Origin: Clostridia bacterium
Lineage (GTDB): Bacteria; Bacillota; Clostridia; Oscillospirales; Acutalibacteraceae
Direction: 5' to 3'
DNA: 64,000 bases
Assembly (NCBI GenBank): GCA_017613735.1
Contig: JAGADF010000008.1
Location: forward strand, 124,001 to 188,000
Shown here: one piece after another, positions 50,113-54,899 of the stretch
Layout of the letters: each line of letters opens with the position of its first letter
Numbering within the stretch: position 1 is the first letter of the stretch
Program-made: the position numbers and the translations under genes
Notes under the pieces: generated by a model
Databases searched by the model: none
What the model was told of the DNA's origin: nothing
Seen by the model: only the letters and a program-made list of their open reading frames with translations

Positions 50113-50140
50113 ATTATAAGTGATTTTTATTATTTGTCAA
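50113..50140 (-). promoter_or_regulatory. Consensus promoter placed for leaderless transcription of the DUF1294 gene
   Basis: On the minus strand TTGACA (50135-50140), a 16-bp spacer and TATAAT (50113-50118); the ATG starts 7 nt later, the same geometry as rodA. The -35 touches the ribosome-site region of the divergent lipoprotein gene. Confidence 0.8.
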
Positions 50141-50152
50141 CCGGAGGGAAAA

Positions 50153-51340
50153 ATGAGGAAGATTATCGCCCTGATTATTGTCGTTTCGCTTTTGCTTTGT
50201 TCGTGTGAAAACGGTAATTTTGCTTACATAAATCCCGAAGAAAAAAGCGAAATATCGGCTGAAGAAAACGAATTTATAAAGGCGGTATGGCTTTCGTATA
50301 TCGAGATTTCAGAGCTTTGCAAAAACCTGACCGAAAGGCAGTTCAGGGAAAGGCTCGTTGACCTTACCGCCAATCTTCTTTCGCTTAAAATCAACGTCCT
50401 TATCGTTCACGCAGTCGCAAACTGCGATTCGTTTTACGAAAGCGAAATTCTTCCAAAAAGCAGGTACATAAATACAGACGGAGAATATGACGTTTTTTCG
50501 GTTATCTGCGAAATGTGCGCGTCCGTCGGGATTGAAATTCAGGCGTGGATTAACCCGTACAGAGTTTCTTCGGAAAGGGATTTGTCCGTTCTCGAAAAAA
50601 ATAAGGCGGTCAAAAAACTGTATTCGGAAAACAAAGATAATATTCTTATATGCGAAAGCGGGATTTACCTTAATCCCGCCGAATCTGAAGTACAAAAACA
50701 TATTCTTGACAGGGCGAGAGAGATTATCGCAGCCTATCCCGTTGACGCAATACATATTGACGACTATTTTTATCCCGATATGGCGGAAAACGCCGACGAA
50801 AACAGCTATAAAAAATACAAAGAGAATAACGGCGTTTTGTCCGTTGACTCGTGGAGGCGGGAAAACGTAAACGCGCTTATTTCCTCTCTTCACCTGCTTC
50901 TGAATGCCAACGGGAAAAAGCTTGTCATAAGCCCTGCGGCGGACATTGAAAAAAACTATGAAAATAAGTATGCCGACATTCGTCTGTGGCTCGAAAACGA
51001 ATGGGCGGACGAGATTGTTCCGCAGATATATTTCGGCTTTGAAAATGAAACCGCGCCTTTTGAAAGGACGCTCGAAAGCTGGATTAAGGAAACCGAAAAC
51101 AAAAAGACAAAGCTGATTATCGGGCTCGCGTTTTATAAATGCGGAAACGAGGATTTGTTCGCGGGAAGCGGTAAAAACGAATGGCTCGAAAACTGCGATA
51201 TAATCAAACGCCAGATAAGCCTGATTAAGTCAAAAAACACAATATGTGGCGTTGCTTTTTTCTCTTATTCCCATATTTTCGGCAAAAATATTAAAAAAAT
51301 TGCAAAAAAAGAGTTACAAAACGCGAAAACTGTGATATAA
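50153..51340 (+). CDS. Lipoprotein with family-10-like glycosyl hydrolase domain (GHL10/DUF187)
   Basis: 395 aa from the ATG at 50153 (GGAGGG upstream; the open frame starts 11 codons earlier at a GTG). Signal peptide with lipobox LLCSC, lipidated Cys18. The body is a TIM barrel of the GHL10/YngK class: AVWLSYIEISEL, EIQAWINPYRVSS, DAIHIDDYFYP and EIVPQIYFGF. These proteins are thought to act on wall or surface polysaccharides. It precedes the dockerin-bearing glucosaminidase gene by 114 bp, in a surface-related block. Confidence 0.87.
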   Translation: MRKIIALIIVVSLLLCSCENGNFAYINPEEKSEISAEENEFIKAVWLSYIEISELCKNLTERQFRERLVDLTANLLSLKINVLIVHAVANCDSFYESEILPKSRYINTDGEYDVFSVICEMCASVGIEIQAWINPYRVSSERDLSVLEKNKAVKKLYSENKDNILICESGIYLNPAESEVQKHILDRAREIIAAYPVDAIHIDDYFYPDMAENADENSYKKYKENNGVLSVDSWRRENVNALISSLHLLLNANGKKLVISPAADIEKNYENKYADIRLWLENEWADEIVPQIYFGFENETAPFERTLESWIKETENKKTKLIIGLAFYKCGNEDLFAGSGKNEWLENCDIIKRQISLIKSKNTICGVAFFSYSHIFGKNIKKIAKKELQNAKTVI

Positions 51341-51404: not shown

Positions 51405-51433
51405 TTGAAATATCATTCGTTTGTTTTTATAAT
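51405..51433 (+). promoter_or_regulatory. Sigma-A promoter of the dockerin-cohesin operon
   Basis: TTGAAA (51405-51410), a 17-bp spacer and TATAAT (51428-51433), 21 bp before the start codon. It gives a leader of about 15 nt with AAGGA near its 5' end. Confidence 0.75.
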
Positions 51434-51454
51434 CGGATTAAGGATGTGAAAGCT

Positions 51455-53557
51455 ATGAAAAATCATCTGAAACGCGCGCTGAGCATAGTCCTGGCGCTGC
51501 TGATTGTCGTTTCAATTTTCACAATAATACCCCCTGTAAGAACAGAAGCTGCTTCAAGCCAGTATGTTTCGAGCACTATTCCCGATATTTACAAAACATA
51601 TATTACCGCGCTGAAAAAGGCTCACCCGAAATGGAAATTCGAATTCTTCTATACGGGACTTGAATGGAAAGATGTCATAGCTAAGGAAACGGACCCGAAC
51701 GTACCCGCCAGAAGTCTTATTTCATACGTTTTCCCGAAGTCGTACCGCTCGATAGTTTCCAAATCATACGACGGCTCGACGGATACATATACATCCTATG
51801 ACGCGGGCGGCTGGTATATGGCTGCCGCCGAAACGGTTTCATATTATATGGACCCGCGTAACTTCTTCACGGACGTCGATATGTTCCAGTTTGAAAAGCT
51901 TTCATACGACTCCGAAATTCACACCATAGACGGCGTCAAGGCTATTCTCAAGGGCTCGTTTATGGACGGTAAAAAGATTAAGAACAATTCAGGCAAGGAC
52001 GTCCTTTACGCCCAGGCTTATATCGACGCTGCGAAAAAACATAAGGTAAGCCCCTACCACCTTGCCGCGCGTACAATTCAGGAGGTCGGCAAGAACGGAA
52101 GCGGCTCGACAAGCGGAACAAACTCAACTTATCCAGGCATTTATAACTTTTATAATATAGGCGCGTATTCCGGCTCTTCACCGATAACAAGCGGGCTCAG
52201 CTGGGCTTCGCAAACCATTTCGGAACCTTCTAAAAGATACGGCAGACCGTGGAATTCGCAGTACAAATCAATAGTCGGCGGCGCCGAATACATAGGCGCA
52301 GGCTATATAAACAATAAGCAGAATACGCTTTACCTTGAAAAGTTTGACGTCGTAGGCGAGTACAATAACACCTCGCTTTACACCCATCAGTATATGGGCA
52401 ACATTACAGCCGCATATACAGAGGGACGTTCGGTTTATGAGACGTACAAGAACTTAAAGGCTCTTGAAAACGCGTTTACGTTTGTTATTCCCGTTTACAA
52501 CAATATGCCTAAGACGATAAGTCCAATACCCATTACTGCGGACAGTCCGTGGAGCTGGCTTAAATCGTTAAAGGTCGATACATATAAAATCAGCCCTTCG
52601 AGCACAATGCAGGTCAGCACGAACAATTTCAAGGTAACCGTTCCCAATAACGTAAAGAAGGTTACGATTTCGGCTGTGCCTTATAACTCGAAGGCAACGG
52701 TTTCGGGCATTCCGGTCACGACGACAACTACCGAAAGCGATACGGGCAAGGTCAAGGTTGAATCGTCCCTGAAGGTGCGTACAAGCGCGGGAGTAAGCTC
52801 ACCCGACGAAAACGCGAACAGGCTTAAATACAACGGCGAGTACGTTAATCTTAAAAACGGAGCGGAGATAAAGAAACTCGGCGAACAGACAGTCGGCAAA
52901 TACGTATGGTTTAAAATCAGCTTTACCTACAGCGGCAAAACCCTGACGGGCTGGGTTAGAAGCGATTATATTGTAATGGATTCAACCACTACCTCAAGCT
53001 ACGGCAAGGTTAAGCTCGACGTCGGCAAAAACACCTTTAACATAAAGGTTACCAACAACGGCAATTCGAGAACCTATGTTCTTACGATAACCCGCGAGGC
53101 GGCTGAAGAAACGACCACGACGACAACTACCGAGCCGCAGGTAAACGAAAACGACCTATTCAAGACGACATATAAGGTCGACGACGCGAAGAAAACAATT
53201 TCAGCCGTTCCCAAGGGCACGTCATATAAAACCTTCATCAAAACCCTCGGTATGAAGAACGATACCACCGCCACGGTTTCCAAAGGCAAGAACCAGATTA
53301 CAAGCGGAAATATGGCTACGGGTATGGTACTGACGGCTGTAAACGGCGGAATAGAATACACTTATACAATTTCGGTTATCGGCGACACAAACGGCGACGG
53401 CGACGTCAACGTTTTCGATATCATCAAAGCGAGAAACCATATTCTTAAAACCGCCAAACTCAAGGATGTTTTATTCCTTTCGGGCGACGTCGATTCAAAC
53501 GGCGAAATCAATATTTTCGACCTTGTTAAAATCAGGAATATTATACTCGGTAAGTAA
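51455..53557 (+). CDS. Secreted N-acetylglucosaminidase-type peptidoglycan hydrolase with SH3 and dockerin domains
   Basis: 700 aa from the ATG at 51455 (AAGGATG upstream; an open GTG lies three codons earlier). Signal peptide to about residue 33. A LytB/LytD-like glucosaminidase domain follows (about 70-340), with VSPYHLAARTIQEVG carrying the likely catalytic Glu. Next comes a cadherin-like beta domain interrupted by Thr-rich linkers and an SH3 domain (VKVESSLKVRTSAG to GWVRSDYIV), and a further small beta domain. The last 60 residues are a type I dockerin, with two calcium loops (DTNGDGDVNVFD and DVDSNGEINIFD). The next gene encodes a membrane-anchored cohesin, the likely docking partner. 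Confidence 0.9.
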   Translation: MKNHLKRALSIVLALLIVVSIFTIIPPVRTEAASSQYVSSTIPDIYKTYITALKKAHPKWKFEFFYTGLEWKDVIAKETDPNVPARSLISYVFPKSYRSIVSKSYDGSTDTYTSYDAGGWYMAAAETVSYYMDPRNFFTDVDMFQFEKLSYDSEIHTIDGVKAILKGSFMDGKKIKNNSGKDVLYAQAYIDAAKKHKVSPYHLAARTIQEVGKNGSGSTSGTNSTYPGIYNFYNIGAYSGSSPITSGLSWASQTISEPSKRYGRPWNSQYKSIVGGAEYIGAGYINNKQNTLYLEKFDVVGEYNNTSLYTHQYMGNITAAYTEGRSVYETYKNLKALENAFTFVIPVYNNMPKTISPIPITADSPWSWLKSLKVDTYKISPSSTMQVSTNNFKVTVPNNVKKVTISAVPYNSKATVSGIPVTTTTTESDTGKVKVESSLKVRTSAGVSSPDENANRLKYNGEYVNLKNGAEIKKLGEQTVGKYVWFKISFTYSGKTLTGWVRSDYIVMDSTTTSSYGKVKLDVGKNTFNIKVTNNGNSRTYVLTITREAAEETTTTTTTEPQVNENDLFKTTYKVDDAKKTISAVPKGTSYKTFIKTLGMKNDTTATVSKGKNQITSGNMATGMVLTAVNGGIEYTYTISVIGDTNGDGDVNVFDIIKARNHILKTAKLKDVLFLSGDVDSNGEINIFDLVKIRNIILGK

Positions 53558-53573
53558 TTAACGGAGGCTTAAA

Positions 53574-54851
53574 ATGAAAAAATCAAGAATCGTTCTTTCA
53601 GTTATTATTGCAGTTGTTCTCTGTTTCCAGATTGCCGTAATGTCGTTTGCGGCAAGCACTATTATATCTTTTTCAAGCAATAACGTTACCATCGGCGATA
53701 CGGTCACGGTTAACGTCACTTTCTCGGGAAGAGATATAGCGGGCGTTCAGTTCAGTATCAGCTACGACTCGAGCATTCTTTCCTATAAAAGCTGTTCGGG
53801 CGCAAGCTACAGCGGCGGAACAGCCGTATGGTATGACGAAAGCTCGTCTTCCTCAAGCCACACCGTAAGCTTTACCTTTAAGGCTAACAAAACGGGCTCG
53901 ACGACAATTCAGGTAAGCGGAGTAAGCGTTTCGAACAACAACGGCGACCCGATAAGCGGTTTTTCGGGCGCGGCGGCTACAATGACGGTAAAGTCAGCCG
54001 AAACAACGACAAAGGCTCCCGAAACCACTACCAAAGCCCCGACTACTACAAAGGCTCCCGAGGCCACAACGAGAAGGCAGGAAACCACAACAAGAAAAGA
54101 GGAAACAACCTCCGAAACAACTACCGAAAAGCCGAAGAATGACGAAATCACATTGGGCGGCAAGACATATAAGTTAGTCGACGATTCGGCGTTTGTAGAC
54201 GCTCCCGACGGCTTCGACGAAACCTATTCCGATTACAAGGGCGATAAGATTTTAACATACACATCAAAGGATAAGTCACAGCAGATTGTCTGCCTTGAGG
54301 GCGAGGACGGCAAGAAGATTTTTGCGCTGTTTAACGACGAAAAGGATTCGTTCAGCGAGTATATCAAAATCAAGTCGGAATCCCTTCCCCTTGTTCTTAT
54401 ACCTGTAAAGGACGGTATGATTCCCGCGACATACAAGCCCGTCAACGTAAAGATTAACGACAAAGAGGTCGCCGCCTATCAGGACGAGGAATTCAAGGCA
54501 AAGGGACTCCACCTTATCTATGCGCTTAATCTCAACGACGGCAAAGCGGGTCTTTACGTATACGACAGCAACGACAAGACGATTCAGAAGTATTACGGCT
54601 TAAGCGTTATTGAGCAGGAGCCGGAAACGACAACCGAGCCGACAACGGAAGAAAAGACAACAGACGAAATTCCGCTTGAAAAAGCGACGATGATTAAATT
54701 AATCTGCGCTCTGGGCGTTCTTCTTCTCGCTTCGCTTATTGCGGTTATAACCCTTGCAATCAAGCTTCGAAAAAAGGCTGACAGCTTCGACGATATGGAT
54801 TTCCGTATAATCGAAGAGGACGACGACGATAAGCCGTATTTCACGGAGTAA
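53574..54851 (+). CDS. Membrane-anchored cohesin-domain surface protein
   Basis: 425 aa. Signal peptide (to about residue 27), then a single cohesin domain (about 28-142: VTIGDTVTVNVTFSG, VQFSISYDSSIL), a Thr/Pro/Glu-rich linker (143-190), an unrecognised domain (about 195-350), a second Thr-rich linker, one membrane helix (about 376-398) and a short, very acidic cytoplasmic tail. It should hold dockerin proteins at the cell surface without sortase or S-layer modules. It starts 16 bp after the dockerin-bearing hydrolase gene (GGAGG site), so the two are one operon. Confidence 0.88.
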   Translation: MKKSRIVLSVIIAVVLCFQIAVMSFAASTIISFSSNNVTIGDTVTVNVTFSGRDIAGVQFSISYDSSILSYKSCSGASYSGGTAVWYDESSSSSSHTVSFTFKANKTGSTTIQVSGVSVSNNNGDPISGFSGAAATMTVKSAETTTKAPETTTKAPTTTKAPEATTRRQETTTRKEETTSETTTEKPKNDEITLGGKTYKLVDDSAFVDAPDGFDETYSDYKGDKILTYTSKDKSQQIVCLEGEDGKKIFALFNDEKDSFSEYIKIKSESLPLVLIPVKDGMIPATYKPVNVKINDKEVAAYQDEEFKAKGLHLIYALNLNDGKAGLYVYDSNDKTIQKYYGLSVIEQEPETTTEPTTEEKTTDEIPLEKATMIKLICALGVLLLASLIAVITLAIKLRKKADSFDDMDFRIIEEDDDDKPYFTE

Positions 54852-54864
54852 ATAATTATTAATC

Positions 54865-54899
54865 AGCCGACCTTGTTTTTATACAAGGCCGGCTTTTTT
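54865..54899 (+). terminator. Terminator of the dockerin-cohesin operon
   Basis: AGCCGACCTTG and CAAGGCCGGCT form an 11-bp stem with one mismatch, followed by TTTTT. Confidence 0.9.

Follow-up and report, generated by a model that had tools for sequence, protein, structure and literature searches.

A dockerin-bearing SagB-like glucosaminidase and a cohesin protein with a predicted membrane helix form a conserved gene pair in Clostridia

Background

What is a dockerin doing on an enzyme whose predicted substrate is peptidoglycan? To our knowledge, no agreed role exists for the lone dockerins and cohesins of bacteria without cellulosomes. The question is raised by two adjacent genes at positions 51455 to 54851 of a 64,000-nucleotide stretch of DNA (the window; positions 124,001 to 188,000 of contig JAGADF010000008.1, assembly GCA_017613735.1) from a clostridial bacterium of the family Acutalibacteraceae. 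The first gene encodes a putative wall hydrolase with a C-terminal dockerin, and the second encodes a protein with a cohesin domain, here called the partner; both, like all features of the window described below, are on the + strand. We consider it likely that docking into the partner tethers the secreted enzyme, a putative peptidoglycan glucosaminidase, to the cell's own membrane; the partner would then be its dedicated receptor or scaffold. In this way the operon gives one set of lone dockerins and cohesins a concrete and testable job, namely the private docking of a glucosaminidase to a membrane receptor. The domain anatomy, gene order, conservation, symmetric recognition residues and co-variation on which we build are read directly from the sequences.

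Results and discussion

The hydrolase and its partner

The product of the hydrolase gene (51455..53557) starts with a signal peptide and ends with the dockerin; between them lie a SagB-like glucosaminidase region and weakly matching cadherin-like and SH3 segments. The open reading frame (51446-53557, 703 aa) is GTG-started, and the in-frame ATG at 51455 is the likely start codon because an AAGGA is better placed for it than for the GTG at 51446. The glucosaminidase region (51746..52480, aa 101-345) was matched by the NCBIfam SagB glucosaminidase model NF052642 (E=1.7e-14, 53.7 bits), far below the curated cut-off of 425 bits; we therefore call the protein SagB-like, and an identification as SagB proper was rejected. 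In a phmmer search, the hydrolase matched Autolysin E (E=1.4e-8), and its residue E213 (codon at 52082..52084) is aligned with a Glu of Autolysin E, which is replaced by Ala in another entry for that protein. We take this Glu to be the catalytic residue and the Ala entry to be its mutant. E213 is invariant in the alignments A1 (10 sequences) and A4 (23 sequences), both of which include the window. The Pfam Glucosaminidase model gave no match to the window hydrolase even at E=1. The protein is probably a peptidoglycan-cutting enzyme that acts on the wall of its own cell.

The type I dockerin (53381..53545, aa 646-700) has two calcium loops and was recognised by Pfam Dockerin_1 with 25 bits (cut-off 22.9) and, in the search of the whole genome, with 28.4 bits. 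Asp residues 647, 651, 658, 681 and 692 are invariant across the 10 sequences of A1, and the recognition residues of the two repeats, VFRN and IFRN, are near-identical.

The partner gene (53574..54851) begins after an intergenic gap of 16 bp (53558-53573) and encodes 425 aa, consisting of a signal peptide, the cohesin, a Thr-rich linker, an ectodomain, a membrane helix and a short acidic tail. Pfam Cohesin scored 22.7 bits on the cohesin domain (53655..53996, about aa 28-141) in hmmscan, where the cut-off is 24.1, and 25.8 bits in the search of the bacterium's own genome. Profiles of the partner family matched solved cohesin structures, namely NagJ (E=8.3e-8 with profile A5) and the ScaB adaptor scaffoldin (2e-7 with profile A2), and the N-terminal domain is therefore, by sequence, a genuine cohesin relative. 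The Thr-rich linker (53997..54137, about aa 142-188) leads to a conserved ectodomain (54144..54605, about aa 191-344), for which searches run on that stretch found neither a Pfam match over cut-off nor a PDB sequence match. Hydropathy gave one C-terminal helix (54699..54755, about aa 376-394), followed by the tail of about 31 residues. The partner did not match the LPXTG-like pattern used, and Pfam found no catalytic domain in it. The initial annotation had described a glucosaminidase-type hydrolase with a complete two-loop dockerin, followed after 16 bp by a protein with a cohesin, Thr-rich linkers and a membrane helix, and the description was borne out; the signal peptides that it assigned to both proteins agree with the hydrophobic N-terminal segment seen by hydropathy in each.

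Conservation of the gene pair

A single-sequence search matched 22 of 120 genomes of the family, the bacterium's own included, and 12 further family loci with full-length partners were examined together with their flanks. The gene directly upstream of the partner ends in a dockerin in 11 of these 12 loci (one from the same genus and ten from other genera); the twelfth belongs to genome G055. The family was also searched from the side of the partner. Among the matches listed, at most 30 per search, 16 family loci have both the cohesin and the ectodomain, and a dockerin-bearing gene lies directly upstream in 14 of them, 11 of which are the loci just mentioned; of the remaining two, one is cut inside the partner and the other, in genome G055, has no dockerin-bearing gene upstream. 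In the class, which was searched with profile A5, built from dockerin-bearing loci and so biased to that type, a dockerin-bearing gene is directly upstream in 14 of 15 listed loci with cohesin and ectodomain. The window itself and one family locus are among these 14, and at the exception (L216) a partner-like fragment lies upstream at the contig edge.

In a collection of named genomes, the best 80 of 584 hydrolase relatives were kept, so that the frequencies apply to the best-scoring loci, which lean to Lachnospiraceae. Here, a same-strand gene within 800 bp that matched the cohesin or the ectodomain profile was counted as a partner. A dockerin was recognised by local profile in 33 of the 80 hydrolases: 23 have a partner downstream, 7 are without one and 3 are at an edge, giving a partner for 23 of the 30 with enough flank. 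The gap between the hydrolase and partner genes is at most 52 bp in 22 of these 23 loci and 297 bp in the other, and it reaches up to 618 bp at loci whose hydrolase has no dockerin. Chance adjacency of the two genes was rejected in view of the conserved gene order; the hydrolase and its partner form a conserved two-gene operon.

In some genomes, the two modules are the only matches of their kind. Counting matches at E<=0.001 in named genomes whose completeness is not stated, we found the dockerin of the hydrolase to be the sole one matched in 11 of the 23 genomes with a dockerin-bearing hydrolase and a partner; in 7 of the 11, Pfam matched a cohesin nowhere but in the adjacent partner, and in the other 4 it matched none. 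Exactly one dockerin match was found in 33 of the 120 family genomes, of which 28 were followed, the 5 genomes with several cohesins being set aside. The sole dockerin belongs to this hydrolase in 6 of the 28, the partner is adjacent in 5 of these, and it is the only Pfam cohesin match in 4 of the 5; in the other 22, no such hydrolase match lay within the stretch returned. Thus the pair is kept in many relatives, including 11 of the 23 named genomes and 5 of the 28 single-dockerin family genomes that have no other dockerin match, which supports the docking interpretation.

Recognition residues and co-variation

Positions 10, 11, 17 and 18 of each dockerin repeat, a numbering that we assume to mark the recognition residues, were compared with control positions of our own choosing in 30 of 32 paired proteins, two with a degenerate second repeat being left out. 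At the recognition positions, the two repeats agree in 83% of comparisons within a protein and in 21% between proteins, while the control positions give 43% and 22%, respectively, and none of 10,000 permutations reached the value of the recognition sites. The recognition residues of the hydrolase dockerin are thus symmetric and change fast, as they do in a functional type I dockerin, and selection appears to act on docking in the proteins that have a dockerin. Furthermore, the distances between dockerins are correlated with those between the adjacent cohesins after the catalytic-domain distances are removed (partial r=0.303, p=0.0002); for the dockerin and the partner ectodomain, which served as the control, the value is r=0.114 (p=0.12). 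Co-variation of dockerin and cohesin is moderately supported by these sequence comparisons.

From these features we infer dockerin-cohesin binding, its calcium dependence, the membrane location and the cellular role. The hydrolase would be secreted, and its C-terminal dockerin would dock into the cohesin of the product of the next gene. As a single helix is predicted to anchor the partner in the membrane, the glucosaminidase would be held at the outer face of the membrane, with the partner acting as the dedicated receptor or scaffold that places it there. Close to the membrane, the enzyme may cut nascent or septal glycan strands during growth or division. The scaffolding is proposed by analogy with SpdC and SagB of Staphylococcus aureus.

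Partners of hydrolases without a dockerin

Several findings weigh against this docking interpretation. The correlation of dockerin and cohesin falls to r=0.226 (p=0.008) without near-copies and to 0.210 (p=0.03) when three odd rows are also removed; in the 22 named pairs, the ectodomain control is also correlated (r=0.251, p=0.02, against 0.372 for dockerin and cohesin). In G055 (L037/L186), a full-length partner is preceded by 427 bp of visible sequence without a hydrolase or a dockerin, and the genome has zero dockerin matches. Seven of the 30 dockerin-bearing named loci have no downstream partner by profile, and 4 of these 7 (L073, L080, L091 and L109) have a cohesin-like membrane neighbour. 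In L073, L080 and L091 this neighbour is divergently transcribed and has a signal peptide, a cohesin-like segment, a Thr-rich linker and a helix, and in L109 a similar gene lies downstream; a profile signal was obtained only in L091 (E=7e-5) and L109 (0.009), L073 and L080 being judged by their likeness to L091, and Pfam found no cohesin in any of the four neighbours. The genome of the window itself has 11 other dockerins that might share the cohesin of the partner.

The dockerin-less hydrolases bear most directly on the role of the partner. They make up 47 of the best 80 of 584 relatives (L075 being counted among them, though its tail reads as a divergent dockerin), and 42 have enough flank. 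The partner stands beside 33 of the 42, as compared with 23 of the 30 dockerin-bearing hydrolases (Fisher p=1), so that a dependence of the partner on the dockerin is unsupported. No dockerin match was found in 21 of the 27 tested genomes among the 33 that combine a partner with a dockerin-less hydrolase. For the comparison of cohesins, partners were available for 22 of the 23 dockerin-bearing and 28 of the 33 dockerin-less loci; a Pfam-recognised cohesin is present in 10 of 22 and 9 of 28, respectively (p=0.39), so that loss of the cohesin along with the dockerin is likewise unsupported in the named set. Since the partner is equally frequent beside dockerin-less hydrolases, it is probably more than a passive socket and does more than dock, which counts against its being a pure tether. 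Beside such hydrolases, either the partner acts with the glucosaminidase without needing a dockerin, or a different ligand binds its cohesin-like domain. The prediction of a dockerin-cohesin tether to the membrane is supported in part, being favoured by the conserved pair, the symmetric residues and the co-variation and disfavoured by the partners of dockerin-less hydrolases.

One possible explanation is that the essential contact of the partner is made by its ectodomain, with the catalytic region or with peptidoglycan, so that it regulates or orients the enzyme and docking is accessory in some lineages. The retention of the partner in mostly dockerin-free genomes speaks for this explanation, as do the correlations of the glucosaminidase with the ectodomain and with the cohesin, which persist after the dockerin is removed (r about 0.46), although shared descent alone would also give them. 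However, hydrolases with a dockerin keep the symmetry of its recognition residues, and in one genus (family f46; L209-L215, seven non-independent loci) the hydrolase has no dockerin and the local profile recognises the ectodomain of the partner but no longer its cohesin, a pattern that fits the loss of a docking constraint. On balance, we regard an essential ectodomain contact as unlikely and retain docking as the preferred explanation. The dockerin-less variants that have kept the partner are a natural experiment that separates docking from its other function.

Evolution of the C-terminal region

The C-terminal region of the hydrolase varies between relatives. Among the 12 named dockerin-less hydrolases scanned with Pfam, SH3_3 was clearly matched in 8, and in 6 of these 8 over at least two stretches. 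The nearest rows outside the genus of the window in a tree of the catalytic domain (L085:5698-8382 and L086:2-2593) have neither dockerin nor partner, and their hydrolases end in S-layer-homology (SLH) repeats; this suggests that the C-terminal slot serves anchoring. In this tree, made by a quick method and with an arbitrary midpoint root used for drawing only, there are at least 8 changes of dockerin state, 4 of which are forced by well-supported branches. The record titles of the dockerin-bearing rows name clostridial families, Erysipelotrichaceae and Bacilli; in addition, there are two metagenome-assembled genomes titled Thermoflexaceae and Muribaculaceae, possibly by mislabelling. It is plausible that the dockerin-bearing state is ancestral. 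A wider proposal, that docking of wall glucosaminidases to a membrane receptor by cohesin and dockerin is an old housekeeping device of Bacillota (Clostridia and Bacilli), repeatedly lost or replaced by SLH tails and SH3 arrays, and that cellulosomes were derived from this coupling after it had at first worked on the wall of the cell itself, is one that we put forward as quite improbable.

Other dockerins and cohesins in the genome

The genome of the window comprises 1.65 Mb in 16 contigs and is about 91% complete. Dockerin_1 matched 12 of its proteins, the hydrolase and the 11 others, and the single Pfam Cohesin match of the genome is the partner. The partner-family profile found one further, weak cohesin-like protein (L170:8498-9205, G000:C15, E=1.9e-9). 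This protein of 235 aa starts with a signal peptide and has SPNTG ahead of a C-terminal helix, and Pfam gave no match to it; the SPNTG tail looks like a sortase-type signal, and the protein is a possible socket for the other 11 dockerins.

A single cohesin facing 12 dockerins could be a general surface socket for all of them, as a minimal form of cell-surface display. In Ruminococcus albus strains 7 and SY3, dozens of dockerins are reported to go with one cohesin protein (PMC4081043). However, 10 of the 11 other dockerins (including that of L051) have a D(A/G)FD-type loop and the eleventh (L053) is divergent, unlike the VF/RN and IF/RN of the hydrolase, and these 11 mostly seem, by sequence, to be a second recognition type. 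An exclusivity of the partner cohesin for the hydrolase is suggested by this difference in recognition residues. In addition, the L170 protein exists as a second cohesin-like candidate with its sortase-like tail, and 11 of the 23 named genomes offer no other dockerin match for such a socket to serve. A general socket is thus very improbable in our view, and we return to private docking. The one-enzyme system of the initial annotation has to be qualified for the genome of the window, with its 11 other dockerins.

All of the 11 other dockerin proteins were scanned with Pfam. Over cut-off, leucine-rich repeats (LRR) were found in 3, a beta-helix in 1 and a transglutaminase in 1; there were also weak LRR in 1 and a weak abhydrolase in 1, and 4 have no clear enzyme domain. 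No plant-polysaccharide hydrolase domain was found over cut-off among these 11 proteins, and no scaffoldin with repeated cohesins was found in the genome at its completeness of about 91%, only the one Pfam cohesin and the one weak, single cohesin-like protein. A fibre-digesting cellulosome was rejected for lack of a scaffoldin array and of a plant-polysaccharide hydrolase among the dockerin proteins, and the genome is not full of scaffoldins, as the docking interpretation had required.

Transcription signals and the upstream gene

The two genes had also been predicted to share a promoter and a terminator, and matches to both frame them. A sigma-70-type promoter-like site, TTGAAA-17-TATAAT (51405..51433), agrees with 11 of 12 consensus positions, and promoter-like matches in the scanned region are above chance (15 against 8.6 in shuffles, sd 2.9). 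A terminator-like stem-loop followed by a T-run (54871..54888) lies 3' of the partner gene. Such matches are no commoner in the scanned region than in shuffles (10 against 7.9, sd 2.6), and the terminator call therefore rests on its position. A promoter-like site of this housekeeping kind does not favour a role in sporulation, although motifs of sporulation sigma factors were not searched for.

Upstream of the bicistron and outside it is a gene for a GHL10 glycosyl-hydrolase-like lipoprotein (50120..51340; PF02638, E=6e-41), a possible functional associate of the pair. GHL10-like genes lie upstream of the hydrolase in 5 of 92 other loci (L035, L039, L040, L054 and L085; four recognised by Pfam), and in L085 an amidase (Amidase_3) gene stands between the two. 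Escherichia coli DigH is presumably a GHL10-type enzyme. The neighbouring gene and the parallel with DigH favour a role in remodelling of the cell's own wall. DigH is reported to degrade denuded septal glycans (PMC12288456).

Relation to known systems

The pair resembles the type I pairs of cellulosomes (Clostridium thermocellum) in its two domain families, symmetric two-loop dockerin, secreted enzyme and non-catalytic cohesin protein. It differs from them in that one enzyme and one cohesin are encoded in one operon without a scaffoldin array, the predicted substrate is peptidoglycan and not plant fibre, and a membrane helix takes the place of an SLH or sortase anchor. In SagB-SpdC of S. aureus, a related glucosaminidase likewise has a dedicated membrane scaffold partner; SpdC, which scaffolds SagB, is described as a membrane homologue of CAAX proteases (PMC10581084). 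Here, in contrast, the partner is a one-helix cohesin protein without a Pfam match of the CAAX-protease-like (SpdC) type, SpdC not having been searched for elsewhere in the genome, and the hydrolase is far below the SagB cut-off. NagJ (GH84) of Clostridium perfringens is the best-scoring solved cohesin for profile A5, and there too cohesin and dockerin serve outside classical cellulosomes (PMC12997984). NagJ is itself an enzyme, whereas the partner is without a catalytic domain by Pfam.

Dockerin-bearing cell wall hydrolases have also been reported for a ruminococcal cellulosome, and a 'lyticome' was proposed (PMC6403190). By this analogy, the window hydrolase could belong to a cellulosome-type or prey-directed lytic complex that attacks the walls of other bacteria. 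However, the ruminococcal enzymes are said there to join a scaffoldin, while here a predicted membrane partner is encoded in the same operon and 11 of the 23 named genomes have no other dockerin match; the pair occurs in genomes with a single dockerin match. The GHL10 lipoprotein genes upstream, in the window and in the 5 other loci, the amidase gene in one of them and the housekeeping type of the promoter-like site also argue against such a complex, which we consider extremely improbable. In the literature searched, to which most subscription papers did not belong, no description of an operon for a hydrolase with a dockerin and a membrane protein with a cohesin was found. If docking of the glucosaminidase to its partner is correct, this plug-and-socket system, well known from fibre digestion, would also serve the wall in growth and division, and many clostridial bacteria would have a SagB/SpdC-like unit built from other parts.

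Other dockerin and cohesin arrangements

Three further arrangements were encountered. LRR proteins with a dockerin are encoded directly before a cohesin-bearing gene in L157 (G026), L159 (G007) and L161 (G038); each of the three genomes has one dockerin and one cohesin match (E<=0.001), which gives a further type of one-to-one pair of neighbours. L071:4491-5921 lies immediately upstream of a hydrolase with a dockerin and overlaps it slightly; it encodes a protein in which local profiles match both a cohesin and a dockerin, and which in this respect is like an adaptor scaffoldin. Finally, L146:178-2583 (G041) encodes a SpoIIP-family protein (PF07454, E=4e-63) with a dockerin just before the SpoIIP domain; this dockerin is the only dockerin match of its genome, and the protein is a second kind of dockerin-bearing wall hydrolase.

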